DNA from: Prevotella fusca JCM 17724
GTDB taxonomy: Bacteria; Bacteroidota; Bacteroidia; Bacteroidales; Bacteroidaceae
Direction: 5' to 3'
Length of the DNA stretch: 64,000 nt
Assembly (NCBI RefSeq): GCF_001262015.1
Contig: NZ_CP012074.1
Coordinates: forward strand, 144,501-208,500
Shown here: positions 3,925 through 57,650 of the stretch, one piece after another
Layout of the letters: the number at the start of each line of letters is the position of its first letter
Numbering within the stretch: the stretch's first letter is position 1
Notes under the pieces: generated by a model
What the model was told of the DNA's origin: nothing
The model's database searches: none
What the model saw: only the letters and a program-made list of their open reading frames with translations
Translations under genes and position numbers: made by a program

Positions 3925-4012
3925 AATTCTTTTCATGAAAATAATTATTTCTTTTCGCGAAGAAAAATATTTCTTTTCATGAAAATAAATAATTATCCTC
4001 ATGATGATAATT
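3925..4012. repeat. Tandem array of four 22-nt palindromic units (TCATGA family)
   Basis: Four consecutive units of exactly 22 nt (3925-3946, 3947-3968, 3969-3990, 3991-4012). Each is centred on TCATGA or TCGCGA with flanking T-rich/A-rich arms, for example TTCTTTTCATGAAAATAA. The same family recurs at 10744-10831 (four units) and 57607-57650 (two units). Function unknown. Confidence 0.85.
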
Positions 4013-4376: not shown

Positions 4377-5459
4377 ATGAAAAAAATTTTGATTGCACTT
4401 TCGATGCTCTCTATGGGTATCACAAGTACGCAGGCTCAGGTAGCTTATGAGAAGGCTAAACCATTTGACAATGTTTACCTCGGCGTTGAGGCTGGTGCTA
4501 TGGGTCCTCTTAACCTTAGTCACTTCGCACCGCTTAACGCAACTGCTGGTGTGAAGGTTGGCAAGCAGTTCAGCCCTGTTTACGGCGCAAACCTCGAAGG
4601 TATCGCATTCTTTGGTGACAACCGTTGGCAGACTGGTTCTTTAGGTTTCTCTAACAGCCATACTGTTGTTCGTGGTCTTAACCTCGGTTTGAACGGTACA
4701 GTTAACTTCACAAACCTCTTCTGCGAGTACAACCCTGATCGTCGTTTTGAGGTAGGTGCTGAGGCTGGTATCGGTTACTGGATTACTTACGGTGACAAGA
4801 ATCTTATCCGCACTGACAATGGTGGTGATGACACTGAGTTGACAGCTAAGACTGGTCTTACTTTCGCTTACAACCTCGGTGAGAAGAGAGCTTGGCAGAT
4901 TTACGCTGAGCCAGCAGTTCTCTGGAACCTTACACATGGTCCTGGCGATGCTGTTCAGTTCGGTAAGCAGGCAGCTCAGCTCGGTCTTTTCGTAGGTGTT
5001 AACTACAAGTTCAAGACTTCTAACGGTACTCACAACTTCAAGGTTTGGAATGTTGGTGAGCTGAACGATGAGATTAACTCTCTCCGTGATCAGCTTAACG
5101 CTAAGCCAAAGGAGGTTGTTAAGGAGGTTATCAAGGAAGTTATCAAGGAAGTTCCTACAACTACAACTCAGACTGTTCGTATTGAGAACATGGTATTCGT
5201 AACCTTCCAGCAGGGTAAGTACATCCTCACAAAGGAGGCTAAGAAGGCTCTTGACGTTGTTAAGTCTGGTTGCCATGTACAGATTATCGGTACAGCTTCT
5301 CCAGAAGGACCGAAGGATCTCAACGATCGTCTCTCTCAGAACCGTGCAAACATTGTTGCTAAGTACCTTGAGGGTCGTGGCGTTATCGTTGACGAGGCTT
5401 TAGGTAAGGGTGTACAGGGTGTTACATCTAACCGTCTTGCAATTGTTTACGTAAAGTAA
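4377..5459 (+). CDS. OmpA-family outer membrane porin
   Basis: Major outer-membrane protein that links the outer membrane to peptidoglycan. A signal peptide (MKKILIALSMLSMGITSTQA) precedes a beta-barrel domain of about residues 22-215, rich in alternating aromatic and glycine strands. A linker follows with a coiled-coil-like stretch and repeated VIKEV units (about 233-262). The C-terminal OmpA-like peptidoglycan-binding domain (about 270-360) has SQNRANIVAKYL, the usual SxxRAxxVxxYL helix. The gene uses a narrow set of codons, as highly expressed genes do. It is monocistronic: its own -7 box upstream and a strong terminator downstream. Family assignment is firm; any porin selectivity is unknown. 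Confidence 0.95.
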   Translation: MKKILIALSMLSMGITSTQAQVAYEKAKPFDNVYLGVEAGAMGPLNLSHFAPLNATAGVKVGKQFSPVYGANLEGIAFFGDNRWQTGSLGFSNSHTVVRGLNLGLNGTVNFTNLFCEYNPDRRFEVGAEAGIGYWITYGDKNLIRTDNGGDDTELTAKTGLTFAYNLGEKRAWQIYAEPAVLWNLTHGPGDAVQFGKQAAQLGLFVGVNYKFKTSNGTHNFKVWNVGELNDEINSLRDQLNAKPKEVVKEVIKEVIKEVPTTTTQTVRIENMVFVTFQQGKYILTKEAKKALDVVKSGCHVQIIGTASPEGPKDLNDRLSQNRANIVAKYLEGRGVIVDEALGKGVQGVTSNRLAIVYVK

Positions 5460-9166: not shown

Positions 9167-10624
9167 ATGCTGAATCTGAAACTTATCTCCAAGATTCTTG
9201 GCTCCCTGTTATGGATAGAGGGCGTGTTGATGCTCTGTTGTCTGTTTGTGTCATTGTTATATCATAGCGTTGACATCATGGCTTTTGCATGGAGCATCCT
9301 TATTACGGTGGGTGCAGGCATCGTGTTCCGTTTGCTGGGACGCAATGCCGATAACCTCTTGGGGCGTCGTGATGCTTATTTTGTGGTAACCGTTTCTTGG
9401 GTGTTTTTTACGCTGTTCGGTACGTTGCCGTTTATGCTCAGCGGCTGTATCGGCAACTTCACGGATGCGTTCTTTGAATCGATGTCGGGTTTTACTACGA
9501 CGGGTGCAACGATTATCGACTATCCCGAATGGCTGCCAAAGGGACTCCTCTTCTGGCGTTCACTCACACAGTGGATTGGCGGATTGGGTATTGTATTCTT
9601 CACTATTGCCATCCTTCCTTCCATGGTGGGTGGTTCGGTAAAGGTGTTTGCAGCTGAAGCAACCGGACCTATCAAGAGTAAGCTGCATCCTCGTTTGAGT
9701 ATGAGTGCCAAGTGGATATGGATAGTCTACGTGGTTCTGACCATTGCCTGTATCTTCAGTTATAAGCTCTGTGGTATGGGGTGGTTTGATGCTTTCAATT
9801 ATTCCATGACGAGCACGGCGACAGGTGGTTTTGCTACCGAGAGTGGTTCTATCATGACATTCCATTCTCCTGCCGAGGAGTATGTCTGTGCACTGTTCTG
9901 TTTCCTCTCGGGTGTCAATTTCACCTTGTTATATGCGTCAGTCATAGGTATGGATATCAAGAAGCTGCTGAAGAACAGTGAGTTCCGTTTCTATGTGATA
10001 ATGGTACTTTCGTTTGCCCTCTTCATAGCCTTTCAGCTTGTTTACCGCAATCATTATGATATAGAGCATGCTTTCCGAAGTGCCATCTTCCAGGTTGTTT
10101 CCTTCATTACAACGACAGGACTTTTCAGCGATGATGCTGCCAAGTGGCCTCATGTGACGTGGGTTGTCCTGGCTGCCTGTATGTTCTTTGGCGGCTGTTC
10201 AGGCTCCACAAGTGGTGGTATCAAGAGTATTCGTGGTGTGATGTTGTTGAAGGTGGTACGCAATGAGTTCCGTCAGATTCTGCATCCTAATGCAGTCTTG
10301 CCAATGAAGGTTGACGGTGTGAATATCCCACAGTCGAAGCGTGTGACCCTCTTGGGATTCATCGGGCTCTACCTTATCTTGACGCTCTTCTGTGCCTTTA
10401 CGATGATAGCTTTCGGCATTGACAACACAAATGCCATTACCATTACGCTGAGTTGTCTTGGTAATGTCGGTCCTACTTTGGGTATGGAGATTGGTCCTAC
10501 GATGTCATGGGTGCAGCTGCCCGGTTTTGCCAAGTGGATTTGTTCTTTCCTTATGCTTGTAGGTCGTCTGGAACTCTTCACGGTTCTGGTGCTGTTCACG
10601 CCTGCTTTCTGGAAAGAGAATTAA
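9167..10624 (+). CDS. trkH: Trk system K+ transporter, channel subunit TrkH
   Basis: Inner-membrane potassium uptake subunit that forms the pore and partners with TrkA just upstream. Its 485 aa have about ten hydrophobic segments. The four pore-loop repeats of the SKT superfamily are visible through their filter-like segments: SGFTTTGATII, STATGGFATESGS, FITTTGLFSDD and LGNVGPTLGMEIGPT. Length and order match the family. Gene order trkA-trkH with a 2-nt gap supports a two-subunit complex. Confidence 0.96.
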   Translation: MLNLKLISKILGSLLWIEGVLMLCCLFVSLLYHSVDIMAFAWSILITVGAGIVFRLLGRNADNLLGRRDAYFVVTVSWVFFTLFGTLPFMLSGCIGNFTDAFFESMSGFTTTGATIIDYPEWLPKGLLFWRSLTQWIGGLGIVFFTIAILPSMVGGSVKVFAAEATGPIKSKLHPRLSMSAKWIWIVYVVLTIACIFSYKLCGMGWFDAFNYSMTSTATGGFATESGSIMTFHSPAEEYVCALFCFLSGVNFTLLYASVIGMDIKKLLKNSEFRFYVIMVLSFALFIAFQLVYRNHYDIEHAFRSAIFQVVSFITTTGLFSDDAAKWPHVTWVVLAACMFFGGCSGSTSGGIKSIRGVMLLKVVRNEFRQILHPNAVLPMKVDGVNIPQSKRVTLLGFIGLYLILTLFCAFTMIAFGIDNTNAITITLSCLGNVGPTLGMEIGPTMSWVQLPGFAKWICSFLMLVGRLELFTVLVLFTPAFWKEN

Positions 10625-10743
10625 AGAACTTTCAAGTTCACAACTTAAAATCCCTGATTATAATCCCCCTGTTTACGGTTGTTTCAGCAGCAGGAGACTT
10701 GTCGGCTTATCCACTTTTTATTCGTCAGTTCCCATCAGCTGCG

Positions 10744-10831
10744 AATTATTTACATGAAAAGAAATATTTTTTATCATGAAGAAAAATATTTCTTTTCATG
10801 AAGAAAAATGTTTTTTATCGTGATGATAAAT
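10744..10831. repeat. Second tandem array of four 22-nt palindromic units (TCATGA family)
   Basis: Four units of exactly 22 nt (10744-10765, 10766-10787, 10788-10809, 10810-10831) centred on ACATGA, TCATGA, TCATGA and TCGTGA. It is the same family and the same unit number as 3925-4012, and both arrays begin straight after GCG. Confidence 0.85.
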
Positions 10832-11002
10832 CGGGGTAGTTGCAGTTTAGTATCTTTTTGATTGTCTCCTTCGGTCGAATAGCGTGTCATGTTCTTTCGA
10901 TAATAAAGCTAAAACAGCCCGCTTGAAAGGCAAAAAACTTTTAAAGGTAATCCTCTGTGCCAGCCGTGAAACTTTCTTATCAGTCTTTTAACAGTTATTG
11001 TG

Positions 11003-11032
11003 TTGGAAATAAACAGGGAATGTGTAATTTTG
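11003..11032 (+). promoter_or_regulatory. Promoter of the DUF4840-like lipoprotein gene
   Basis: TTG (11003-11005), 19-nt spacer, TAATTTTG (11025-11032). Transcription would start near 11039, which excludes the longer GTG frame from 10957. Confidence 0.8.
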
Positions 11033-11073
11033 TGCCCGATAAACTTAGATATAATAAACCAAAACTTTCTACA

Positions 11074-11700
11074 ATGAAAAAGAATCATTTATTACTTTTA
11101 GTCGTTGCGCTTATGATGACTTTCTCATTTACTTCTTGTCTGAATGATGATTTTGACGGGAAGGCAAAGCAAAACCGACCCACACAGGCAGAGTTGAAGG
11201 CTGCCAGCAAAACCATTCAAGGAACTTATCAAGGAAAGCTGTTTACCTACACTTTTAATTCAACGAACAATACTATTCAGAAGAAAGATTCAGTAATCAC
11301 CAGCTGGGAAATCACGGATGACACTACGCTTGTGGTGAAGAGGTTTCCAAGTAAACTGTTGGCAAACAACGTTACAAATGCTGACTTGAAGCAGGCTATA
11401 GAGGCTTTGCCTGACCAGGAAGTTAAGTGTGCGGTAAGCATCTTTAATGTGAACCCGATTCTTTTCTATATTGCACCCTATCGGCTGGATTTGGGTAAGC
11501 TGACTTATGGCGGGAAGACGCACGATGTCTCTGTCGGCTTCATCTTCAATCCGAACAATACGTATGGTGGATATGACAACGCCAAGAAAATTACAGGTTT
11601 CCGCCTTATTGAGTCAGTTGTGCTGATTGACGGAACTACAGACAAGTCATTATATAGAGGTTTTGAAATCTTCGACTTTAGGTCAGAGCCTAAGAAATAA
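11074..11700 (+). CDS. DUF4840-like secreted lipoprotein
   Basis: 208-aa predicted lipoprotein: MKKNHLLLLVVALMMTFSFTSC gives a signal sequence with lipobox Cys22. The mature part is a compact, mostly beta domain beginning SKTIQGTYQGKLFTYTF with a C-terminal strand SLYRGFEIFDFRS. This resembles the DUF4840 family of Bacteroides and Prevotella, to which I assign it from memory of the pattern. No enzymatic motif is visible and the role is unknown. ATG 11074 is preferred over GTG 10957 because the promoter lies between them and the signal peptide starts here. It is monocistronic, with a strong terminator downstream. Confidence 0.85.
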   Translation: MKKNHLLLLVVALMMTFSFTSCLNDDFDGKAKQNRPTQAELKAASKTIQGTYQGKLFTYTFNSTNNTIQKKDSVITSWEITDDTTLVVKRFPSKLLANNVTNADLKQAIEALPDQEVKCAVSIFNVNPILFYIAPYRLDLGKLTYGGKTHDVSVGFIFNPNNTYGGYDNAKKITGFRLIESVVLIDGTTDKSLYRGFEIFDFRSEPKK

Positions 11701-16815: not shown

Positions 16816-16846
16816 ATGTTTATTAGCTGAATCTAATCCTTTTCTT

Positions 16847-17188
16847 ATGACTCTTGAAGAATACAACCAATTAGAAATTGATTACGAACACTGTGCTGGC
16901 ACTCACTGCGAGAAAGCCAGCCAGTGTTTGCGCCATACAGCCTACACGATGTTTGAGTCGGGTGGGCGGGAACGGTATATGATGTTGAACCCGAAAGTGA
17001 TAACGGGTGCACAGCCATGTCCGTACTATGAGCAGAAGCGCAAGAAACGTTTTGCGTGGGGCATCTCTCGCATTTACGATAATGTGCGGATGGCAGACTT
17101 GAAGCGTGTCCGTCACGAAGTAATGATGTGCTTTGGCTCTGAAGTTTACTACAAGGTCAAACAGCAACGCCGTGCCATAACTGAATAA
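16847..17188 (+). pseudogene. DUF6078-like gene truncated by an in-frame stop
   Basis: Codes for 113 aa resembling the intact paralogue at 18545. Shared pattern: an N-terminal Cys-rich part (HCAGTHCEKASQCLRH), a CPYYE/CKEF-type Cys, KKRFAWGISRIYDNV against KERLAWGFSHLFDDV, and CFGSEVYYK against HFGSRFVYYR. The TAA at 17186-17188 falls where the paralogue has Glu (TE-stop-EQKMV against SEEEQQWV). The frame stays open for 38 more codons (17189-17302) that still match the paralogue's tail, up to TAG at 17303. A single G-to-T change in a GAA codon would explain this. Function of the family is unknown. Confidence 0.75.
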
Positions 17189-17382
17189 GAGCAGAAGATG
17201 GTTCGTCTTTCCTTTACTGAAATGGCTTATGACGGTAGTGCCATCGAGTTCGATCGCTATGAAGAACAATACGCTGCTGTGATGCGGCTGGCAAGATACA
17301 GTTAGATATCTGCACACATTTGCTTGACATTCTCTGATAGTTCTTTGGTAGGTTCTTATAGAAAGGTATATAACTTATGATA

Positions 17383-17470
17383 TTGGACACGTTAGTCCAG
17401 TGAGTTGGATAGGCGTGTCCAATAAGTTGGATTAGTCAGTCCAATTGATTGGATTAGCTTGTCCAATTCT
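17383..17470. repeat. Tandem array of four 22-nt units (TTGGA...TCCAA family)
   Basis: Four units of exactly 22 nt (17383-17404, 17405-17426, 17427-17448, 17449-17470). Each starts TTGGA and carries TCCA about 7 nt later, so each is a small inverted repeat, for example TTGGATTAGTCAGTCCAATT. The array sits immediately upstream of the ion-channel gene and ends 17 nt before its ATG. Confidence 0.85.
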
Positions 17471-17487
17471 TTAAATAAACTTATTTA

Positions 17488-18252
17488 ATGTCGTTGGTTC
17501 ACAAGAAATCATTTAGTGATATGAATAGACAGAAGATTGCAAACATAATAGACAGGAAGTCACGTTCTGACTGGATGTGTACGGCTTATGACTGGTTCAT
17601 GGTTCTGACCATTCTCGTAAGCCTTCTTCCGCTGATGTTTATGGGTACGTACAAAGTGTTTTGGTTTACGGAAATGGCTTCAACGCTCGTGTTCATCATT
17701 GATTACCTGCTTCGCTGGGGTACGGCTGATTTGAGAAGCAACAATCGTAAGATAGCGTTTCTTTTCTATCCGTTTTCTTTTATGGCAATCATTGACCTGC
17801 TGTCCATACTGCCTGCCGTAACGCTGCTTAATCCTGCATTCAAGCTCTTCCGTTTCACACGCCTGTTGAGGCTGACAAGAGTCTTGAAGATGTTTGGAAT
17901 ATCAAGCAAGGTGCGTTTGTTTATGTCCATACTCTACAAGGAGCGTCAGGTCTTGTCTTCTGTCTTGGTCTTGGCTTTGCTCTATATCTTTGTGACGGCA
18001 CTCATACTGTTCAATGTCGAACCCCACATAAACCCATATACAGGTCAGCCTACCTTCCGTTCTTTCTTTGATGCCTTGTATTGGGCAACCGTGACACTTA
18101 CCACGGTAGGTTATGGGGATATGTGCCCTGTCACCGATGTCGGTCGTTTCGTTAGTATGCTTTCGTCTCTGTTCGGTATAGCCGTTATCGCTTTGCCCTC
18201 TGGTGTCATTACCGCCCGATATCTTGATGAACTGCGTAAGGAGAAGGACTGA
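17488..18252 (+). CDS. Voltage-gated-type potassium channel
   Basis: 254-aa inner-membrane protein with six predicted transmembrane segments and a pore loop. The S4-like helix has basic residues at every third position (KLFRFTRLLRLTRVLKMF), and the selectivity filter is TVGYGD (206-211). This is the Kv/Kch architecture: a voltage-sensor domain followed by a pore. No C-terminal RCK domain is present; the protein ends soon after S6. The first ATG at 17488 is used; a second in-frame ATG lies 11 codons in. The 22-nt repeat array directly upstream may affect its expression (inference). It sits inside a defence-rich island, but I see no direct defence feature in it. Confidence 0.93.
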   Translation: MSLVHKKSFSDMNRQKIANIIDRKSRSDWMCTAYDWFMVLTILVSLLPLMFMGTYKVFWFTEMASTLVFIIDYLLRWGTADLRSNNRKIAFLFYPFSFMAIIDLLSILPAVTLLNPAFKLFRFTRLLRLTRVLKMFGISSKVRLFMSILYKERQVLSSVLVLALLYIFVTALILFNVEPHINPYTGQPTFRSFFDALYWATVTLTTVGYGDMCPVTDVGRFVSMLSSLFGIAVIALPSGVITARYLDELRKEKD

Positions 18253-30415: not shown

Positions 30416-30525
30416 GCAAGAAAAGGTGCTTAATTGGACTTCAAAAGGGCGTTAGTTAGACCTCAAAAGGGTGTCTTTTGCAAGTCAAAAGGGCGTTAAT
30501 TCAAGCGCAAAAGAGTTTTTATTAA
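30416..30525. repeat. Array of five 22-nt units (CAAAAGGG family), copy 1
   Basis: Five consecutive 22-nt units (30416, 30438, 30460, 30482, 30504). The shared core is TCAAAAGGGCGTT with more variable flanks. The first two and a half units are nearly identical to the array at 57209-57318. Confidence 0.85.
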
Positions 30526-30737
30526 AAACGGGTTAAGGAAAAATTATTACATTTATGGCTAAATTCGTTCCCAACTTCTTTCCTTTTGGAGAGGCTGGGG
30601 ACGAGGTGTCTTTCTATTTTTGTAGTAGGAATGTTTGCTTCTTTGATGGGTTGTTTTTCTTCGTTCTGCAGTCTCGGTTGTACACCGTGTTGCTCATAGT
30701 ACTATGTCAAAATGTTTCTATCCGATGTATAAGCAAT

Positions 30738-30877: not shown

Positions 30878-33800
30878 TTATCTTGTCAGACTAAGTCTAA
30901 GACTCACACCGAAGTCATGCGTGGTTGTTGGGTAGCTGCCTGACGAGAGGAGCGGTGTGTTAATCTGCAAGTCGTAATACAGGCTTGCTGTAACCAAACG
31001 GCTCAAGGTGTAGTCGCTCATGAAAGAGAACTTGAAGGCGGTGTTGCCACTTGAAGCTGCAGAAGTGAGCGAAGCAATGTCACGTGTGAGCGATGCCTGC
31101 TGACGATAGCTCATGTCAAGGCGTAGGTTGAGGTCACGGTTCAGTCCGTTGCTCTGTCGGGATGAATTGCTGTCCTGCTGTGAGCTATCTGTTGTCTTTT
31201 TCTTTTTGTTCTTGACAGTACGGCGTGTACCGCTGTTGAAGAGGTTGAAGTCGTTGATTCTGTAACCGATGCCCACAACCCAGTCTTTTGATGAAGCCTC
31301 ATTCAGCTGTACACTCGTCATGGAGAGTGAGAGAACACGTGTCTGACGATACTCCAGTCGTGCAGTGAGGTTGTTCTGCAGCGTGAGGTCGATACCAAGA
31401 AGCGGCGAGAATGCCTCGTTGATGCTCACCTGCGAGATGTTATACATCGAACTTGGGATTGGGTTGCCCGTTGTTGCATCAGCAATGAAGCCGAGTCCGT
31501 TCATGTATTCCTGCCATGTGCTGTAACTCTGATAAGCACCGATGGCAAAGATGCTGCGATAAGCATGATTGATATTGACGCTCTTGAAGAACTGTTCGAA
31601 GAACGGCAGACGAGAGAGACCACTGTAACGGATAGACCAGTTGGGCAGCAGACTGCGCAGCGCAGGGAAGATGTTGAGCCCGTTGCCACTCATGCTGGTG
31701 TAGGCATTGAGGAAAGCCGGCACCATTACGTCAGCACTGTATTTGTTGACAGCACCCACTGTAGGACTGAAATGTCCTCCGCCGAAGGATGCTGGATAGG
31801 TAGCATTGCTGTATTGAGCCTCCACACGGTTGCGATAGCCGTCGAGTGACTGTACGAAACGGTTGAATGTAGCACTGTGATAGCCGTTGTTTGCATTGCC
31901 CTGACTCTCGAAGGCTGTGCCCAGTGAAAGGGTTGTAATGGTGAAGGAACCGCTCTGTGTCGTCGGGTTGCCAGCATACATATACTGGATGCTTCGTGAG
32001 GTTGTCTGCATACGACTGGCAGTAAGGTCAATCTTGAAGTCCTTGAAAGGCTCCAGTGTCATGCGGATTTGCAAATCCTCTGTCTGGTTTGTCGTTGCTG
32101 GTGTAGCCACGCTGTCGTTCATAAGCAGCCAGTTGTTCTCACGTGCCTTGCTGATGTAATCGTCATCAATGAAACCGAAGGCGAAGTCGAGTCCCGGCGA
32201 CAGTGCCCCCATGCCACGTGTCTGTCCGAAGGCATCGCCCACGGTCGGCATGAATCCCGGCAGTGACATGGCGTGTTGGTTGCGGTAGGATACGCTTGCC
32301 GAGCGCACCATCATCAGTGCACGTGCCACACATTGTGCCGTCTTGTACCATCCCTTGTTGTCGAGTGGTTCCTTAGGTGTAACGGTCAGTTTCATGCGGA
32401 TGGCAGAGTCGGTTCGGTTAAAGATTTTCAGCTGTGTGTCTCCCACCTTACGCCATTTTATCTTCATTACCTTTCCTCTTTCATCCTTGGCAGAGATGAT
32501 GAGTCGCCTTGTCTTCTTACCATGTGATACGAGGACGGCTGAATCGGCATTGATGACGATTTCCTTTTCAAAGCTCTTCTGGTTCTTTGGAAGTGCCTTT
32601 TTCTTTTCTTCGTCCTTGTCTTTTTCCTTCTTCTCCTTTTCTTTCTTTTCCCTCTCAGCCTTCTTCTGTTCGGCAGTCAGTGTAGGGCGGGTAGGACGTG
32701 TGCGGTTGAAACGCTCATTGGTCTTCTTGAGGAAAGGAATATGATTGTAGAGTCGCTCAAGGTTGAAGGTGCTGTTGATGTTCAGCGAACGGTTGCTTGT
32801 AATGGTATTGCCAAGTGAAGTTCCGTCATCAAGGCTTGTTCCACGTACCCAAGTGTAGGATGCGGTATAATTTGCATCAGCATTCACCCAATTAAATACA
32901 GGCAGCAGATTGAGCGGCAATTGATAGGAGAGCGTGAAGTTCTGCTGGTAGTCGAGTGGAGTACCGAAGTGCTTGATGCTTGTCCACACCGAGTCCTTCC
33001 ATGCCTGATAACGGTCGGCATAGAGGTCTTTATTGATAGGTGTGTAAGGCTCTTCAATCTCAGCGTGTGTCGCACTTTGGAAGTTCATGTGAAGATTGCG
33101 TGTCAAGTCCCAACGTAGAGCGAAGTCACGATTCCAAAGGAACTGCTCGCTGAAGGTAAGAGGCAACAGACTGTTCTCTGTTGATTCCATATCACGTTCC
33201 TGCAACTCGTGGTAGTTGCGCACCATTTCAGTGTTGAAGGTTACGTTCTGTGGTAGCCAGTTCAGTCCGAAGCGTTTGAGGATTTCAAACCATTTCGACC
33301 TACTCTTGATAAGACGCTTGAAAGGTTCCCAAGACTTATATACTGGTGTCCAGTTATAGTTCAATGCTCCACGCCAGTTGTCTTCATTCTCATAAACCGT
33401 TGTCTCACCCGATGTGTGAGAGTGGGAATGGCTATAAGAGAATGAGAAGTTGGCAGGGTCGTATGGCATAGGGTGATTCTTGGTCTGAATACCGACACGT
33501 ACGTTAGACAATGAGAAATTTGTTGTCAGACGTTTCGTTATAGCAATCGACTCAATAGAATCACGCTCACGGCGGTTGGCTGTACCTTCAAGGGCATCTT
33601 TCAGTTCCATATCCGTGTCAAGTGGATTGTACTTAGGACGGTTCTCGCTCTTTGTGACACTGTAATATAAAGGTGCAGATACCTTCGCCTTGTCGGGGAA
33701 GAACTTTCCTAACTCAAGGCTTGTTGTGACGGATACATCTGTCTTTGTCTCCTGTTGTCGCTCGTTGACACCCTGTTCCAAGCCACCGAAGCCATCGGTG

Positions 33801-36800
33801 CTGTGGCTGGCATTGATATCCACTGTACCAAAGTCGGACAGTTGAAGATTGAGCTGGCCTCTTGCAGCCCATCCACCTTCGTTATTGAATTCCAGTAAAC
33901 GTAGTTCATTCACCCAGACCTCGCCACTCTTCTGACTGCTGGAAAGGTTGCGAACACCGATGATCATCGTCTTCACTTCACCAAGTGTCGGGTTACCCAT
34001 CACGGTAACCTTGTTGGCAGGACGGTCAGTGTCGTAGACAGAGAAAGCACGGTTATAGCTTGCAGTTCCTGCACCACGTGCCTGGTTGCGCTGCTTCTTC
34101 ACAGAGGTGAGCAGCTTCAATGGTATGTCGAGCATGTTTTCCTCAGGCCATACGATGCGGCGGTCCTGACCCGTGTACATGTCGTAGTGCCCTGGAGCTG
34201 ACAACTTCAAAGGAATTTCATACTCGTAGTAGTTGTTCTTGTAATCAGACCCCAGACGGATGAACACTGCCAACTGGTTATCCGTAAGATTGGTGGTGTT
34301 CTGTTCAAAGGCATTGGCGTGTATGAACATCTGCAGACGTTTGTACTGACGTAAGTCGAGGGTTGTGTTCTTATAGACAGCCTTTGATTCGCCTGTTCCA
34401 AGGTTATTGACAACCATTGAGAGTGCCTGCTCATTCTCCTCAACCAACTGTGGCTGGTTAGGGTCTTGTCCACGGCGAATGCCAGGAGGTAATACATAGT
34501 TGACAGGAACCTTATCATTGTTCTCTTCAAGGCTCACAGCACTTACCGACATTGTACCCGTATTGCTGGCAGAGTTGGTGAGGTTCTGCTGATACTGACG
34601 CCACTTGCCACTTACAAGGTCGAAAGTTCCGAAGCGAAGAACGATAGGCTTTTCGAAGCCAGTGAGGAACATACGCATGAAGCGGATGCTGGTAAAGTCG
34701 CTGATGTTACCCACGCGCTTCTGGAACTCCTCTAAAGGAATGCGGAACTGATACCAAGTGACAGGTTCAGAGCCACCCTTACGCAGTGAAGCTGAGGCTA
34801 CACGCTTGTCAACAATGAAGTTCTGTCCCACGACAAGGTCTTGTGGACGAATACTGATATGATACTGATAGTACTTTTCGTATTCGTTCAGCGTGTAGTC
34901 CTGATTGATGTCCTCAACGTCAGGGGTTGTCTTGTACGAGGTGTCGTAACGTTCATTATTGTTGTCATTGTCTGGTGAGTTGCCCTGTGGGTTGTTGATA
35001 CGTTTATATCTTTCGAGGATAGAAGCCTGCTTTGCATCCCAGTCAGAACCACGGAAGTAGTGGTAGTCATCGTTGGCAGGGTCAGCCCATATCGAGTCAA
35101 AGACAGCCTGATTGGTGTTGGCACGGGCTGCCGTAAGGAAGTTCTGATAAGAAGCAAACTGCTGTTCTTCTTCATCTGTCAGACCGTTAAAGCCGACATC
35201 CTGCTTCGCACGACTACCCTTTGAAGTTGCAAAGGCATAAGTAATCGTACTTTGTGTTGGGATTTTACCCCATTGTGTGGTCGTCCATGACTGGCTGCCG
35301 TCTACTGGCATACCACTCTCGTAGAACTTCTTACCATCTTTCAGTACATCTTCAGACACCTCACCGAGGTTGATATAGAAATCACCACCATACTGATTGG
35401 CATTCGGCATTCGGTTGGAATAGATGAATGGGTCGAGCATCCAGAACTCTATGTATTCGATATTGGCAGTCTGGAAGTCGTTGGTATCGAGCTTGCGCAT
35501 CATACCTCCCCATGTGCCAGTAGGATTCGTGAGGTGTCCGTTGATGTCAAGATTCGGATTGAAGTTGTACGGTCCACGCTCAGAAGGATAGTAGGCGAGG
35601 TTCAGAATGTTCAATGTTGAGATGGAACCGCTGTAGTTTCGGTCACGGTTTGGGAACAGCTCGCTTACTGGAATCTCGCGGACATAGTGGTTAGAAAGCT
35701 GTTCGAGGTCACTCTTGATGTGTCCCGGTGTCAGCGAACTACTGCGACGAGTGAAGAGCGGGTCAATATAATACCATGCCAACAGACTTCGGTTGAAGCC
35801 GCTGCGGAGGGTTGTTTTGTCTGAATATTCAGGGAAGTCAGATGGTACACTTGAGATAATCCAAGAGGTTGGCTGACTTACGTCGATAGTTGTCTTTGCT
35901 CCTTCAAAGTCATCGAGATAGGAAGCATTGTCCTGTGTTCCCTTGCTTTGACCAGCCAACAACTGTGCAAACTCAGCAGAGAAAGTAATATAAGAAGGCT
36001 GTGTTACGTGCAGGAAAGGAATCTTATTGAGCATATTCGTAAGCCACTGACTCTCTTTCTTCCAATTGATGTTCAGTCCCCAAATGGTGTTGTTGAGCGG
36101 TTCAGAACCCATATTCACCTTTGTTGTCAATGGCTGTTCAGACAGGTGCATGAATGTACCACCAATCTGAAAATCCTTCGAGAAGTCGTACTCCCAGTTT
36201 ACACCTATCATCGTCTTGCGTTCCTGTTGGTAAGCACTCTGGCTTTCCAACGATACGTTGATAGCCGTACCTGCATCAATGATGCTCTGGTTAAGGATAG
36301 TCACCTCGCCGGCACTGTAATCAACGCTATAGTCAGAACCCTCATTCAAGGTTACACCTCCCGCTGTTACTACCACCGATCCTTGTGGAACATTGTAGGC
36401 ACCAAGGGAAATTACATTCGCTGCCGATCCACGATACTGACCAACAAGGACGAACTTATCCTTTTCGGCAATCTGCTTTGCGATAGTCTTTGTCGAGTCG
36501 TAGAGTTGTTCGAAGACATACTTGTCTGCAATGGCAGCCGTAACTCTTTTATCCATCAAGGCTTTGCGAAGTCCGTTACCGAAAGGCTCGGCCATCGGGA
36601 AGAATACACGTCCGTTGCTGATGGTATAGCCCTCCACGTAGTCAAAATAGCCATTGGAGTGTGGATTGTTATTGTTGTCCAATCGGTCAGCATTCAGAAG
36701 TTTGATGAGCGTCTGACTCTTTACTTGTGGCTCGGGGATATATGAAATGTATACACCTGTCGTATCACTCTGATACTTCACGTCAAGGCGGAACTTGTCA

Positions 36801-38440
36801 CGCTCAATGTTGGAAGCAAGATAATAGACGTTCTTCATCATCAAGTCCCAGTTTCCCTGCTTAGGGTTGTTGCTGGTGTTCTTCAATGACTTGACAAAGA
36901 GAGCCTCGTTGATATTGGTACGATCACTGGCAAACTCACCCACCTGATAGGTTACGCCACCGTAGGTATATTCGTAAGCAATTGCCAATACCTGATCGGT
37001 CTGCAGTCCACTCTTCAGTGAAATATAACCCAGAGCGTTGTTGACGGTATATTCAGAACTGTTGAGCAGTCGGGCATTTGCCAACTTCTCATAGTCATTA
37101 CCACCCACAAGTCCTGCACCGTCAAGGATACCTGTCACCTGGTCGATGTCACGGGCAGCAGGATAGGTCTGTGTGATGGTACTGTATTCTGTATTGGCAT
37201 TGTTTGTTGGCACTGGTCCATTACCCGTTCCCCACAGGTCGGTACGGCTTATCTTCTTGTTCTCACCGAGGTCGGTCAGTGCTACGATGTTACGTGTGTT
37301 GCTGGTCGTTCCGGTCTTGTTGGTCACCCATACCTCCACACGATTGATGGTCACGCCCGTCTTGAGGTTAGGCAATGATTTCATCGCCACGTCATAGTTG
37401 TCACGGAAGTACTGTGAGAGAAAGAAGTGGTGGTTTTCTTCATAGTCAGCCGCATCAATCTCAAAGGGTGTCAGCTGTTTTCCACCACGTGAGCTTACAC
37501 TCTTGTTAGAGCTCTTTTTCTGCGATAATACCGTCTGCAGCTTCAGTTTTCCGAATTGCATATCCGTACGTATACCGAAGAGAGCTGATGCTCCCTGCAC
37601 GAGAGAGTTATTGGAAGGGAAGGTTACATTACCGCCTTCAACGAGCTTGATAATCTCATCCTCCTTGCCTTCATATCTCAGTTTGAAGTTCTGTGTATCG
37701 AAGTCGAAGGTGGCATCGGTGTTGTAGTTAAGGTTCATATTCACCTTGTCGCCCACTTTGCCATTCACGTTGACATTGATTTTCTCATCAAAGTCCATTG
37801 CAGTCGTCTTACGGTTGCGGATAGGCAGTGACGGGTTGTCAATGTTCTTGAGGTTTGCACCGAACTTCAGTTCTGCCGAACCCTGCGTCTTGATACGCAC
37901 ACCACCCGGTCCGAATATCTTTTCTGCCGGTCCCAGTGAGAAGTGCATATCCGTGAAGTCGAACTTATCCTTGCCTTTCTCCTTCAGTATCTCCTGATTC
38001 TTTGAACGGTAGTAATCGGCAAAGCTACGCTTCTCAGTCCACTTCCGATATTCCTCCGGCGTCATCATGATTGGTGCCATCACGTAGGTCTTACCAATCT
38101 TGTAGCCGATGATATAGCGGTCGAGCGAGTCGTTATACTCCACAGTCTGTCGCATATTCTCTGGGCGGATAAGGTCGGTAGAGTTCTCTCTGAGGTCGTC
38201 GTAGGTGACAGGCGTTGTGCGCTGTACTTTCCAACGAGGGTGTAGCAGTGAATCGGGGATGGTTTCCTCGTCAATCTCCACTTCGATGGGCTTCGCTTTC
38301 TTTATGGTATCTGGCGGAGCGATAGGTCTGACCAGTTTTGCAATCGGTGCAAAACCAAGTGCCGATCGTCCCCAGCTCAACAGTCCGATACTGCCGAGAA
38401 GTGTGATGATAAGGATGGATATGTAATGCTTTCTTTTCAA
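30878..38440 (-). CDS. sprA: SprA, outer-membrane translocon of the type IX secretion system
   Basis: 2520-aa protein, the size of known SprA/Sov proteins, which form the very large outer-membrane beta barrel through which type IX secretion substrates leave the cell. The N-terminus has a signal or anchor segment (about 6-28) and then the SprA N-terminal region (HFSLGPAEKIFGPGGVRIKTQGSAELKFG). Long beta-rich stretches follow to the C-terminus (VSLRLSLTR). About residues 1885-1930 form a highly charged Lys/Glu stretch (EREKKEKEKKEKDKDEEKKK), which is low-complexity and probably periplasmic. ruvA lies upstream on the same strand across a palindrome pair. The presence of sprA implies a type IX system elsewhere in the genome. 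Confidence 0.96.
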   Translation of the reverse strand: MKRKHYISILIITLLGSIGLLSWGRSALGFAPIAKLVRPIAPPDTIKKAKPIEVEIDEETIPDSLLHPRWKVQRTTPVTYDDLRENSTDLIRPENMRQTVEYNDSLDRYIIGYKIGKTYVMAPIMMTPEEYRKWTEKRSFADYYRSKNQEILKEKGKDKFDFTDMHFSLGPAEKIFGPGGVRIKTQGSAELKFGANLKNIDNPSLPIRNRKTTAMDFDEKINVNVNGKVGDKVNMNLNYNTDATFDFDTQNFKLRYEGKEDEIIKLVEGGNVTFPSNNSLVQGASALFGIRTDMQFGKLKLQTVLSQKKSSNKSVSSRGGKQLTPFEIDAADYEENHHFFLSQYFRDNYDVAMKSLPNLKTGVTINRVEVWVTNKTGTTSNTRNIVALTDLGENKKISRTDLWGTGNGPVPTNNANTEYSTITQTYPAARDIDQVTGILDGAGLVGGNDYEKLANARLLNSSEYTVNNALGYISLKSGLQTDQVLAIAYEYTYGGVTYQVGEFASDRTNINEALFVKSLKNTSNNPKQGNWDLMMKNVYYLASNIERDKFRLDVKYQSDTTGVYISYIPEPQVKSQTLIKLLNADRLDNNNNPHSNGYFDYVEGYTISNGRVFFPMAEPFGNGLRKALMDKRVTAAIADKYVFEQLYDSTKTIAKQIAEKDKFVLVGQYRGSAANVISLGAYNVPQGSVVVTAGGVTLNEGSDYSVDYSAGEVTILNQSIIDAGTAINVSLESQSAYQQERKTMIGVNWEYDFSKDFQIGGTFMHLSEQPLTTKVNMGSEPLNNTIWGLNINWKKESQWLTNMLNKIPFLHVTQPSYITFSAEFAQLLAGQSKGTQDNASYLDDFEGAKTTIDVSQPTSWIISSVPSDFPEYSDKTTLRSGFNRSLLAWYYIDPLFTRRSSSLTPGHIKSDLEQLSNHYVREIPVSELFPNRDRNYSGSISTLNILNLAYYPSERGPYNFNPNLDINGHLTNPTGTWGGMMRKLDTNDFQTANIEYIEFWMLDPFIYSNRMPNANQYGGDFYINLGEVSEDVLKDGKKFYESGMPVDGSQSWTTTQWGKIPTQSTITYAFATSKGSRAKQDVGFNGLTDEEEQQFASYQNFLTAARANTNQAVFDSIWADPANDDYHYFRGSDWDAKQASILERYKRINNPQGNSPDNDNNNERYDTSYKTTPDVEDINQDYTLNEYEKYYQYHISIRPQDLVVGQNFIVDKRVASASLRKGGSEPVTWYQFRIPLEEFQKRVGNISDFTSIRFMRMFLTGFEKPIVLRFGTFDLVSGKWRQYQQNLTNSASNTGTMSVSAVSLEENNDKVPVNYVLPPGIRRGQDPNQPQLVEENEQALSMVVNNLGTGESKAVYKNTTLDLRQYKRLQMFIHANAFEQNTTNLTDNQLAVFIRLGSDYKNNYYEYEIPLKLSAPGHYDMYTGQDRRIVWPEENMLDIPLKLLTSVKKQRNQARGAGTASYNRAFSVYDTDRPANKVTVMGNPTLGEVKTMIIGVRNLSSSQKSGEVWVNELRLLEFNNEGGWAARGQLNLQLSDFGTVDINASHSTDGFGGLEQGVNERQQETKTDVSVTTSLELGKFFPDKAKVSAPLYYSVTKSENRPKYNPLDTDMELKDALEGTANRRERDSIESIAITKRLTTNFSLSNVRVGIQTKNHPMPYDPANFSFSYSHSHSHTSGETTVYENEDNWRGALNYNWTPVYKSWEPFKRLIKSRSKWFEILKRFGLNWLPQNVTFNTEMVRNYHELQERDMESTENSLLPLTFSEQFLWNRDFALRWDLTRNLHMNFQSATHAEIEEPYTPINKDLYADRYQAWKDSVWTSIKHFGTPLDYQQNFTLSYQLPLNLLPVFNWVNADANYTASYTWVRGTSLDDGTSLGNTITSNRSLNINSTFNLERLYNHIPFLKKTNERFNRTRPTRPTLTAEQKKAEREKKEKEKKEKDKDEEKKKALPKNQKSFEKEIVINADSAVLVSHGKKTRRLIISAKDERGKVMKIKWRKVGDTQLKIFNRTDSAIRMKLTVTPKEPLDNKGWYKTAQCVARALMMVRSASVSYRNQHAMSLPGFMPTVGDAFGQTRGMGALSPGLDFAFGFIDDDYISKARENNWLLMNDSVATPATTNQTEDLQIRMTLEPFKDFKIDLTASRMQTTSRSIQYMYAGNPTTQSGSFTITTLSLGTAFESQGNANNGYHSATFNRFVQSLDGYRNRVEAQYSNATYPASFGGGHFSPTVGAVNKYSADVMVPAFLNAYTSMSGNGLNIFPALRSLLPNWSIRYSGLSRLPFFEQFFKSVNINHAYRSIFAIGAYQSYSTWQEYMNGLGFIADATTGNPIPSSMYNISQVSINEAFSPLLGIDLTLQNNLTARLEYRQTRVLSLSMTSVQLNEASSKDWVVGIGYRINDFNLFNSGTRRTVKNKKKKTTDSSQQDSNSSRQSNGLNRDLNLRLDMSYRQQASLTRDIASLTSAASSGNTAFKFSFMSDYTLSRLVTASLYYDLQINTPLLSSGSYPTTTHDFGVSLRLSLTR

Positions 38441-42495: not shown

Positions 42496-42549
42496 ATTAG
42501 CCCAATTAGCCCAATTAGCCTAATTAGCCCAATAAGCCTGATAGCCCTA
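42496..42549. repeat. Six tandem 9-nt units (ATTAGCCCA family)
   Basis: ATTAGCCCA twice, ATTAGCCTA, ATTAGCCCA, then the diverged ATAAGCCTG and ATAGCCCTA. It fills the gap between dacB and mscS and ends 14 nt before the mscS ATG. The same nonamer occurs after ddh (40621-40647). Confidence 0.85.
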
Positions 42550-56776: not shown

Positions 56777-57208
56777 AAAAAGTTGCACAAAAACCGCTTG
56801 ACTGTGTTTATGTTTATTAGGAGTCAGGGGATTTTTCCATTGGGTGCTTTGTTGGAGTTAAACCTTTTCCTTTAATTGTATGGGCGTAGTAAAGATGGTG
56901 ATTGACGACTTTTGTTTAACCTCTATAAAGCGGTTCTTCCGTTAAATGTGTGGATGCTTTTCGTATAGCTTTAACGGAAGAACCAAAGTTATTCGTTAAA
57001 CAAAAACATAGCCAAGACCGTCTTGGCAGTCTGTTCTGTTATCATCCTCCGACACAGAAAACCTTTTCATGTTAATACTTTGAAATCCGCAGATAATGAA
57101 TTGAAAAAACATGACATAATTTCGGGTGAAGCACCTACAAATAAAGGCAAAAACACGTGTAAAAAGCAAGTTTACAACCAACAGTAAATCAGTCAGTTAT
57201 AAAGTCGT

Positions 57209-57318
57209 GCAAGAAAAGGTGCTTAATTGGACTTCAAAAGGGCGTTAGTTAGACCTCAAAAGGGCATCTATTGCAAGTCAATTGGGCGTCTTTTAGAAGC
57301 CAAGAGACCATGTATTGG
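57209..57318. repeat. Array of five 22-nt units (CAAAAGGG family), copy 2
   Basis: Units at 57209, 57231, 57253, 57275 and 57297. The first two are identical to those at 30416-30459 and the third nearly so; the last two diverge but keep the 22-nt spacing. Confidence 0.85.
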
Positions 57319-57606
57319 TTTTGGAATGCATGAAAATAGTTTACAAACATTAAGTGATATGGGACTAAGTTGTTTGTAGAAGACGGAAGGACATAGTATT
57401 TATTTACCTTTTCTACATTTTACCTTATCCCCCCTTGTAAGACCATCTGATTTTGGATAGTCATACCATGCAGGTGGATAAGCCTTTGTTCTATTTCCAA
57501 ACTACGCATTTATCGGATGAACCTATAAAGCCCTTGAAACTAATGGGGAACCCTGTCTGATGTCCAAATTGTAGCCTGTGCAATGAACAAAACCACATAA
57601 CTTGTA

Positions 57607-57650
57607 AGTTCTATTCACGATCATAAATATTTTTCTTCACGAAAATAATT
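57607..57650. repeat. Two 22-nt palindromic units (TCATGA family)
   Basis: 57607-57628 and 57629-57650, centred on TTCACGA; the short version of the arrays at 3925 and 10744. Confidence 0.7.

Follow-up and report, generated by a model that had tools for sequence, protein, structure and literature searches.

Many sequence families, one 22-nt step: intergenic repeat arrays of sampled Prevotellaceae as possible rows of protein-binding sites

Short arrays of contiguous 22-nt units lie between the genes of Prevotella fusca JCM 17724 and recur over the sampled Prevotellaceae. Their step is strict, the number of units stays close to four and the units belong to many sequence families. Sites are common to several species, family A arrays exceed their flanks in conservation at four compared sites, and units are lost in steps of 22 nt. 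We tentatively interpret these arrays as old, inherited rows of binding sites for one or several putative dimeric DNA-binding proteins, an interpretation in which our confidence stops a little short of even. Prevotella and its relatives are common in the mouth, gut and rumen, and to our knowledge little is known about the organisation of their chromosomes. Hundreds of conserved intergenic sites per genome sharing one fixed spacing would amount to a large unread layer of the genome, and a 22-nt rule would give a context to PINSR, an orphan repeat discussed below.

The window, i.e. the whole 64,000-nt stretch analysed here, spans positions 144501-208500 of contig 1 in a genome of 3.26 Mb composed of two contigs of 1.83 and 1.43 Mb. 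The initial annotation had named six arrays in three families, all with 22-nt units. Re-examination of the sequence recovers the six, each with its 22-nt spacing, and the three families (A, C and D), to which a seventh, previously unlisted array adds a fourth family, E (Table 1). The array at 57607 keeps the spacing and holds only two units. Family A is AT-rich, the units of family D carry the motif GTCCAAT/ATTGGAC and those of family C the motif CAAAAGGG. The family D array belongs to a block at 16843-18247 comprising a DUF6078 gene and an ion-channel gene, which matches a Segatella baroniae record (L191) at 93% identity along 1405 nt, the adjoining dnaK-like region being only 81% identical; judging from these identities, horizontal transfer of the block, array included, is likely. 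Other features of the window are a 9/18-nt tandem repeat (ATTAGCCCA) in a short intergenic gap at 42496-42547, of a period other than 22, a 12-nt tandem repeat in frame within an OmpA-like protein gene at 5109-5153 and, at 30878-38440, a minus-strand open frame 2520 aa long. A phage collection searched with window positions 9167-11700 returned zero near matches.

Table 1. Period-22 arrays and associated elements in the window (window coordinates).
Feature	Position	Strand	Basis and remarks
Family A array, 4 x 22 nt, downstream of MATE gene	3925..4012		Lag and multi-unit scans
Family A array, 4 x 22 nt, downstream of TrkH gene	10744..10831		Lag and multi-unit scans; species comparison
Family D array, 4 x 22 nt	17382..17469		Inside the 1405-nt block 93% identical to the Segatella baroniae record
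Solo family C array, five 22-nt units, element of ~190 nt, between convergent genes	30417..30526	+	Scans; same place in G144, G158 and G359
Family E array, 3 x 22 nt, beginning right after a stop codon	43773..43838		Multi-unit scan; similar arrays in the corresponding position, with other letters, in G359, G158 and G144
Left target-site duplication TATAAAGC of the MITE	56924..56931		
592-nt MITE with terminal inverted repeats, containing the flagged array	56932..57523	+	At least 40 genome copies, 14 aligned; site without MITE in G359 and G158
Flagged family C array, 4 x 22 nt, within the MITE	57216..57303	+	
Right target-site duplication TATAAAGC of the MITE	57524..57531		
Family A array remnant, two units	57607..57650		G359 and G158 have four units here

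That the common period exceeds chance, as had been proposed, is borne out by shuffled controls, by the other lags and by a pooled scan of periods. In the window, a scan of lags 5-59 gives four clusters at lag 22, three at its harmonic 44, one each at lags 9, 12 and 18 and none elsewhere. The autocorrelation called for in the initial annotation was run, with 44 nt as scanning width and a minimum of 32 matches, on a genome sample of 40 stretches of 20 kb placed 80 kb apart (800 kb, of which 10 kb masked): it yields 50 real clusters at lag 22, 28 at the harmonic 44 and 0-5 at each other lag from 4 to 69, against zero in dinucleotide shuffles after subtraction of three N-run artefacts from each count. 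A missing excess of lag 22 over lags 20-24 had been set beforehand as the refutation of the rule; hardly any clusters, if any, occur at lags 20, 21, 23 and 24 compared with 22. When 2-10 units are scored jointly in the window and in 39 of these stretches (L033, which overlaps it, was left out), 78 arrays are found at period 22 versus 0, 1, 8, 2, 5 and 1 at periods 19, 20, 21, 23, 24 and 25; four units give the best fit for 49 of the 78, three units for 15, five units for 11 and two units for 3. The pooled 3.24 Mb contain 212 arrays at period 22 versus 0-28 at each other period of 17-30, and only 3 at period 23. Chance repetition in AT-rich DNA, which the composition of family A might suggest, is thereby refuted, and the GC-richer G004 (52% GC in its sample) has the same period; we leave this explanation practically no probability. 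Coding repeats were rejected as well: the arrays are intergenic, and the next periods in the pooled data, 21, 24 and 18, are all divisible by three, as the periods of coding repeats are. So was a CRISPR array, the units being contiguous with no spacers between them.

The comparison of species within the family, also suggested initially, shows period 22 recurring in the sampled Prevotellaceae with differing sequences. It is present, in other letters, in same-genus samples G003, G004, G010, G016 and G017; G008 has one array in 100 kb and G009 zero in the 100 kb sampled. In the 400 kb of G096, 58 arrays have period 22 and 8 have period 44, every other period between 15 and 45 being represented by one array at most. 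Among 80 loci (1.24 Mb, most of them titled Prevotella or Prevotellaceae), 29 arrays have period 22 and 8 period 44, the competing periods 21, 14 and 24 having 19, 16 and 13; three of the 29 stand in two records titled uncultured Bacteroides. Small controls from other Bacteroidales families (229 kb) and Escherichia coli (50 kb) gave zero arrays at period 22. Taken together, about 3.2 Mb of P. fusca and related genomes provide 213 period-22 arrays, which sort into 66 sequence families at a 68% threshold. No common sequence was seen between these 66 families, distant relatedness being possible, and from their sequences some of them look related to each other. In G004, seven 22-nt arrays (z of at least 5.6) crowd one 20-kb stretch (L122), where some neighbouring units look reversed. 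Among the papers listed in searches of the open-access literature, none was found on a common 22-nt rule.

Family A gives the clearest view of an array. Phased on their core, 20 of the 24 sampled arrays hold exactly four units, two hold three and two hold two (strict core), and 65 of their 66 spacings equal 22 nt, the last one 21. Over the whole sample, A cores are paired at a distance of 22 in 40 cases and of 21 in one (within 18-26), then of 44 in 28 and of 66 in 14. The outer ends are alike, CG/AATTATTTTCATGA ... TCATGAAAATAATT/CG. No target-site duplication was found in the 24 arrays, a 2-3-nt match sitting inside the inverted ends themselves, and a classification of family A arrays as MITEs was rejected on this ground. 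Two-fold symmetry of the unit at p < 0.05 (column permutation) is found in 38 of the 66 families in a first run and 37 in a repeat, compared with 19 of 61 families of other periods (Fisher p = 0.007 versus 37/66); at the 0.01 level the counts are 22/66 and 11/61 (p = 0.07, not significant). The excess of symmetry at period 22 is modest. When the 66 families are taken together, extra power is found for A+T content at 11 nt (z 3.2) and also at 5.5 nt (z 3.3), and for purine content at the full 22 nt (z 5.0), as expected for a unit of two opposed halves, each one helical turn long. Direct 11-nt half repeats were rejected despite the 11-nt A+T harmonic, only 4 of the 66 families having them at p < 0.05 and none at 0.01. 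At site L031, the third A unit of P. fusca, near 4800, fits its relatives better when reversed (2 versus 7 mismatches, by eye), as if a palindromic unit had flipped.

Symmetric units might also act as RNA, in the form of rows of hairpins in the untranslated ends of messages, and in tandem gaps the A arrays do lie nearer the upstream stop in 12 cases out of 14. Mirror positions of 86 A units are nevertheless complementary in 0.752 of cases when 0.781 is predicted from column frequencies. This covariation test gives no sign of selection for a stem, and its outcome is what protein-read half-sites may produce, unlike a stem. Folding of six C elements, mostly weak, gives z values relative to simple shuffles that range from -0.3 to -3.0 for one strand and from 0.0 to -2.3 for the opposite one; an Rfam scan of the window returned zero matches, and hairpins have no need of a fixed 22. 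We regard an RNA role as very unlikely.

The arrays had been described as lying only between genes, and with a simple gene caller a single one of 102 (arrays of more than six units left out) falls inside a called gene, four others being at sequence edges. Arrays labelled solo C occupy convergent gaps in 14 of 32 cases, about twice the expectation, the labels being simple text patterns under which at least 2 of 33 'C' rows (L049 and L064) seem to belong to other families. No single role emerges from the gene context. On a larger scale, family A sits on contig 1 for 38 of 40 scored copies (p = 6e-8; 40 of 132 candidates scored) and 20 of 24 sampled arrays (p = 0.012), and solo C leans to contig 2 (23/33, p = 0.002). 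On contig 1, the half around the GC-skew origin near 1.66 Mb holds 28 of the 38 scored A sites (p = 0.005; same 40 of 132 candidates), an exact A site being found at 1293669, and none of the 38 falls in the stretch from 0.55 to 0.93 Mb that surrounds the skew terminus (near 0.78 Mb). A chromosome-wide spread with thinning towards the terminus would be expected of SlmA/Noc-like nucleoid sites. Other A copies do occur in the thin region, namely two arrays at 0.64-0.66 Mb (L039) and several more, weaker ones, and contig 2 does not follow the origin bias; in G158 the distribution looks alike among the matches listed. What is seen near the terminus is a thinning of A sites and not an absence. It is a lead only, and the vicinity of the origin may simply be where old core DNA is found.

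Eight sites were compared between neighbouring species; a further site, L037, gave no usable pair. At 10744, four units are found in P. fusca, G359, G158 and G144, without indels in the relatives while the flanks hardly align. At 3925, where P. fusca has four units, G144 also has four but for a 1-nt deletion, G158 keeps a stump of one unit and in G359 no array can be recognised; 22-nt arrays of another family follow this gene in G003 and G038. At 57607, the two units of P. fusca face four in both G359 and G158. Arrays occupy the C site 30417 and the E site 43773 in all four species, the letters of E having changed in P. fusca. At the A sites L031, L047 and L051 the array is kept in G359 and G144; in G158 it is kept at L031, decayed at L047 and minus exactly one unit at L051. 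Over four family A sites (11 of 12 pairs), array DNA is 89.2% identical with 2 gaps in 945 nt, one of them a 22-nt loss, versus 64.3% and 37 gaps in 2356 nt for flanking intergenic DNA; these pooled figures leave out the decayed pair L047/G158, whose array (57%) is less conserved than its flanks (75%), and the pairs share history and are not independent, which makes p values too small. Orthologous arrays (0.89) are more alike than different A arrays of one genome (0.83), indicating that vertical descent outweighs copying.

These comparisons bear on the dedicated enzyme offered in the initial annotation as a possible generator of arrays. Such an enzyme would copy a 22-nt step, as a two-turn ruler, from any starting sequence, which would account for one length shared by many unrelated sequences and for longer rows such as that of G017 (L088 from 3027), where an unusually long series of twelve 22-nt units around TATGACGTCATA stands downstream of a TrkH gene. 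No freshly made array was seen at the eight compared sites, however, the arrays being shared, decayed or shortened, and the units of one A array are only 78% alike. We hold such an enzyme to be conceivable but improbable.

The flagged array, originally delimited as 57209-57318, has a history of its own. It lies inside a 592-nt element which is a MITE, with terminal inverted repeats, a target duplication, no transposase gene and many copies: at least 40 full copies in the genome (40 of 225 candidates scored), and 19 long ones, the window copy included, in the genome sample. The 20-nt ends are GGTTCTTCCGTTAAATGCGT and its inverse in most of 14 aligned copies; those of the window copy match each other in 17 of 20 positions and are flanked on both sides by the 8-bp duplication. 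In one of the 14, the array is short by exactly 22 nt. The neighbouring DNA is present without the element in G359 and G158, and comparison of these sites indicates that insertion most likely occurred in the P. fusca lineage. The flagged copy is a C array captured and spread by a MITE. Derivation of this MITE from the resident ISL3-type element was rejected because the ends differ, sharing only GGTTCT and the 8-bp duplication; seven of eight PF01610 loci have no MITE end within 5 mismatches, and the eighth has one beside it. Seven copies of the ISL3-type insertion sequence are found at L326-L332, six of which are 98.6-99.9% identical to the first along most of the aligned copy (L332: 99.0% over 1122 nt), and their near identity suggests that this insertion sequence was probably active recently.

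Outside the MITE, the solo C element measures about 190 nt and consists of five 22-nt units between conserved ends, GTAAC..TAATCA..GTTA on the left and TTACA on the right (15 copies anchored). A dispersed element of G096, with about 190 conserved columns, follows the same plan of five 22-nt units in other letters, and its 44 aligned copies have no long inverted ends; one of these copies is located some 230 nt downstream of a tnaA-like frame. The centres of its units 3 and 4 (loci L271-L290) are of two kinds and always differ from each other in the 42 pattern hits, out of 53, that lent themselves to classification; the 42 comprise 27 distinct strings and are related copies, possibly on both strands, so not independent. 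The solo C and G096 elements appear, by eye, to be related through common end motifs; in a free alignment these motifs are not set against each other, and the letters differ strongly. The G096 element is dispersed, intergenic, close to 188 bp and without terminal inverted repeats, as PINSR is. The solo C elements of P. fusca agree with PINSR in length and plan only by eye, and on its published description these solo relatives of the flagged array resemble it.

Such likenesses speak for descent with drift of the letters, the strongest rival explanation and one that is partly true. In its full form, the arrays would be old non-autonomous repeat families, PINSR- or BrickBuilt-like and devoid of a host role, stemming from a few ancestral 22-nt arrays whose period was kept by descent and unit exchange. 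C and PINSR-like elements have a common length, plan and end motifs (by eye), the A arrays of a P. intermedia-type genome have an identical four-unit frame around a different core, losses of exactly one unit and of two show that units do exchange, and one C array was captured by a MITE. PINSR itself is called old by its authors, and about three quarters of its reported sites are common to two strains, which fits old inherited elements (PMC4755523). Neutral arrays should nevertheless gather indels and change period, yet the arrays are better conserved and have fewer gaps than their flanks and 22 is the only period seen; the 66 families, moreover, display no common sequence, short of the distant relatedness already mentioned. 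Repeats devoid of any host role are a possible explanation, and in our judgement one somewhat less probable than binding sites.

We therefore return to rows of protein-binding sites. Sites of a putative dimer on one face of the helix fit the strictness of the step, the nearly constant number of units, their symmetry and the constraint on the arrays. Each array would usually offer three to five roughly two-fold-symmetric sites; with neighbours exactly 22 bp, or two helical turns, apart, the bound dimers would align on one helix face. Selection would hold spacing and number while the bases drift along with recognition, leaving each lineage its own letters in the same geometry. We infer recognition by the putative protein and side-by-side binding; a role in chromosome organisation rather than in local gene control is a guess. 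Since letters differ between families, there would be several related proteins, or one that reads geometry. Against protein sites, several unrelated families per genome demand several proteins or a very tolerant one, G009 and G008 of the same genus are nearly without arrays, and sister species lose arrays. The nucleoid protein with fixed spacing put forward initially would fit the symmetry, the conservation and the rarity of indels, the protein itself being putative. As for the shared mechanism that was to explain all arrays, the period-22 rule stands, and its cause is confounded by descent, some families looking related, and by the arrival of the flagged array with an ordinary mobile element. 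A broader proposal, that it is through the 22-bp step of two-fold-symmetric sites that architectural proteins of the Prevotellaceae recognise rows of them, number and spacing being fixed and letters free to vary per species or chromosome, is one that we consider unlikely but worth stating.

Several known systems invite comparison. REP/BIME palindromes and the sites of SlmA, Noc and MatP are dispersed palindromes, some of them unevenly placed on the chromosome. The arrays described here are likewise dispersed and have roughly symmetric units; no such protein is linked to them. The 22-bp iterons of plasmids, tandem protein sites two turns apart, are a geometric analogue only. We know of none among these systems in which one fixed spacing is common to many sequence families that are unrelated. 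In these bacteria, interspersed repeats had already been described, namely PINSR and, in Porphyromonas, BrickBuilt. PINSR is reported as a 188-bp repeat without terminal inverted repeats, present in high copy number and downstream of tnaA (PMC4755523). The section devoted to it, which concerns PCR results from the intermedia/nigrescens group only, makes no mention of a 22-nt unit (PMC4755523). Compared by description, the G096 element is similarly a dispersed, intergenic, non-coding sequence of about 190 nt with many copies, one near tnaA, whereas families A, D and E have other sequences (PMC4755523). BrickBuilt of Porphyromonas gingivalis is described as having 1 to 22.8 units of 23 nt, IS5-type ends and 19 copies (PMC4596501). 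The MITE at 56932-57523 has the same build, that of an intergenic MITE with an internal tandem array, but the unit here is of 22 nt, for which reason the arrays were not assigned to BrickBuilt, and the MITE differs further by about four units, other ends and at least 40 copies, most arrays standing outside MITEs altogether (PMC4596501).
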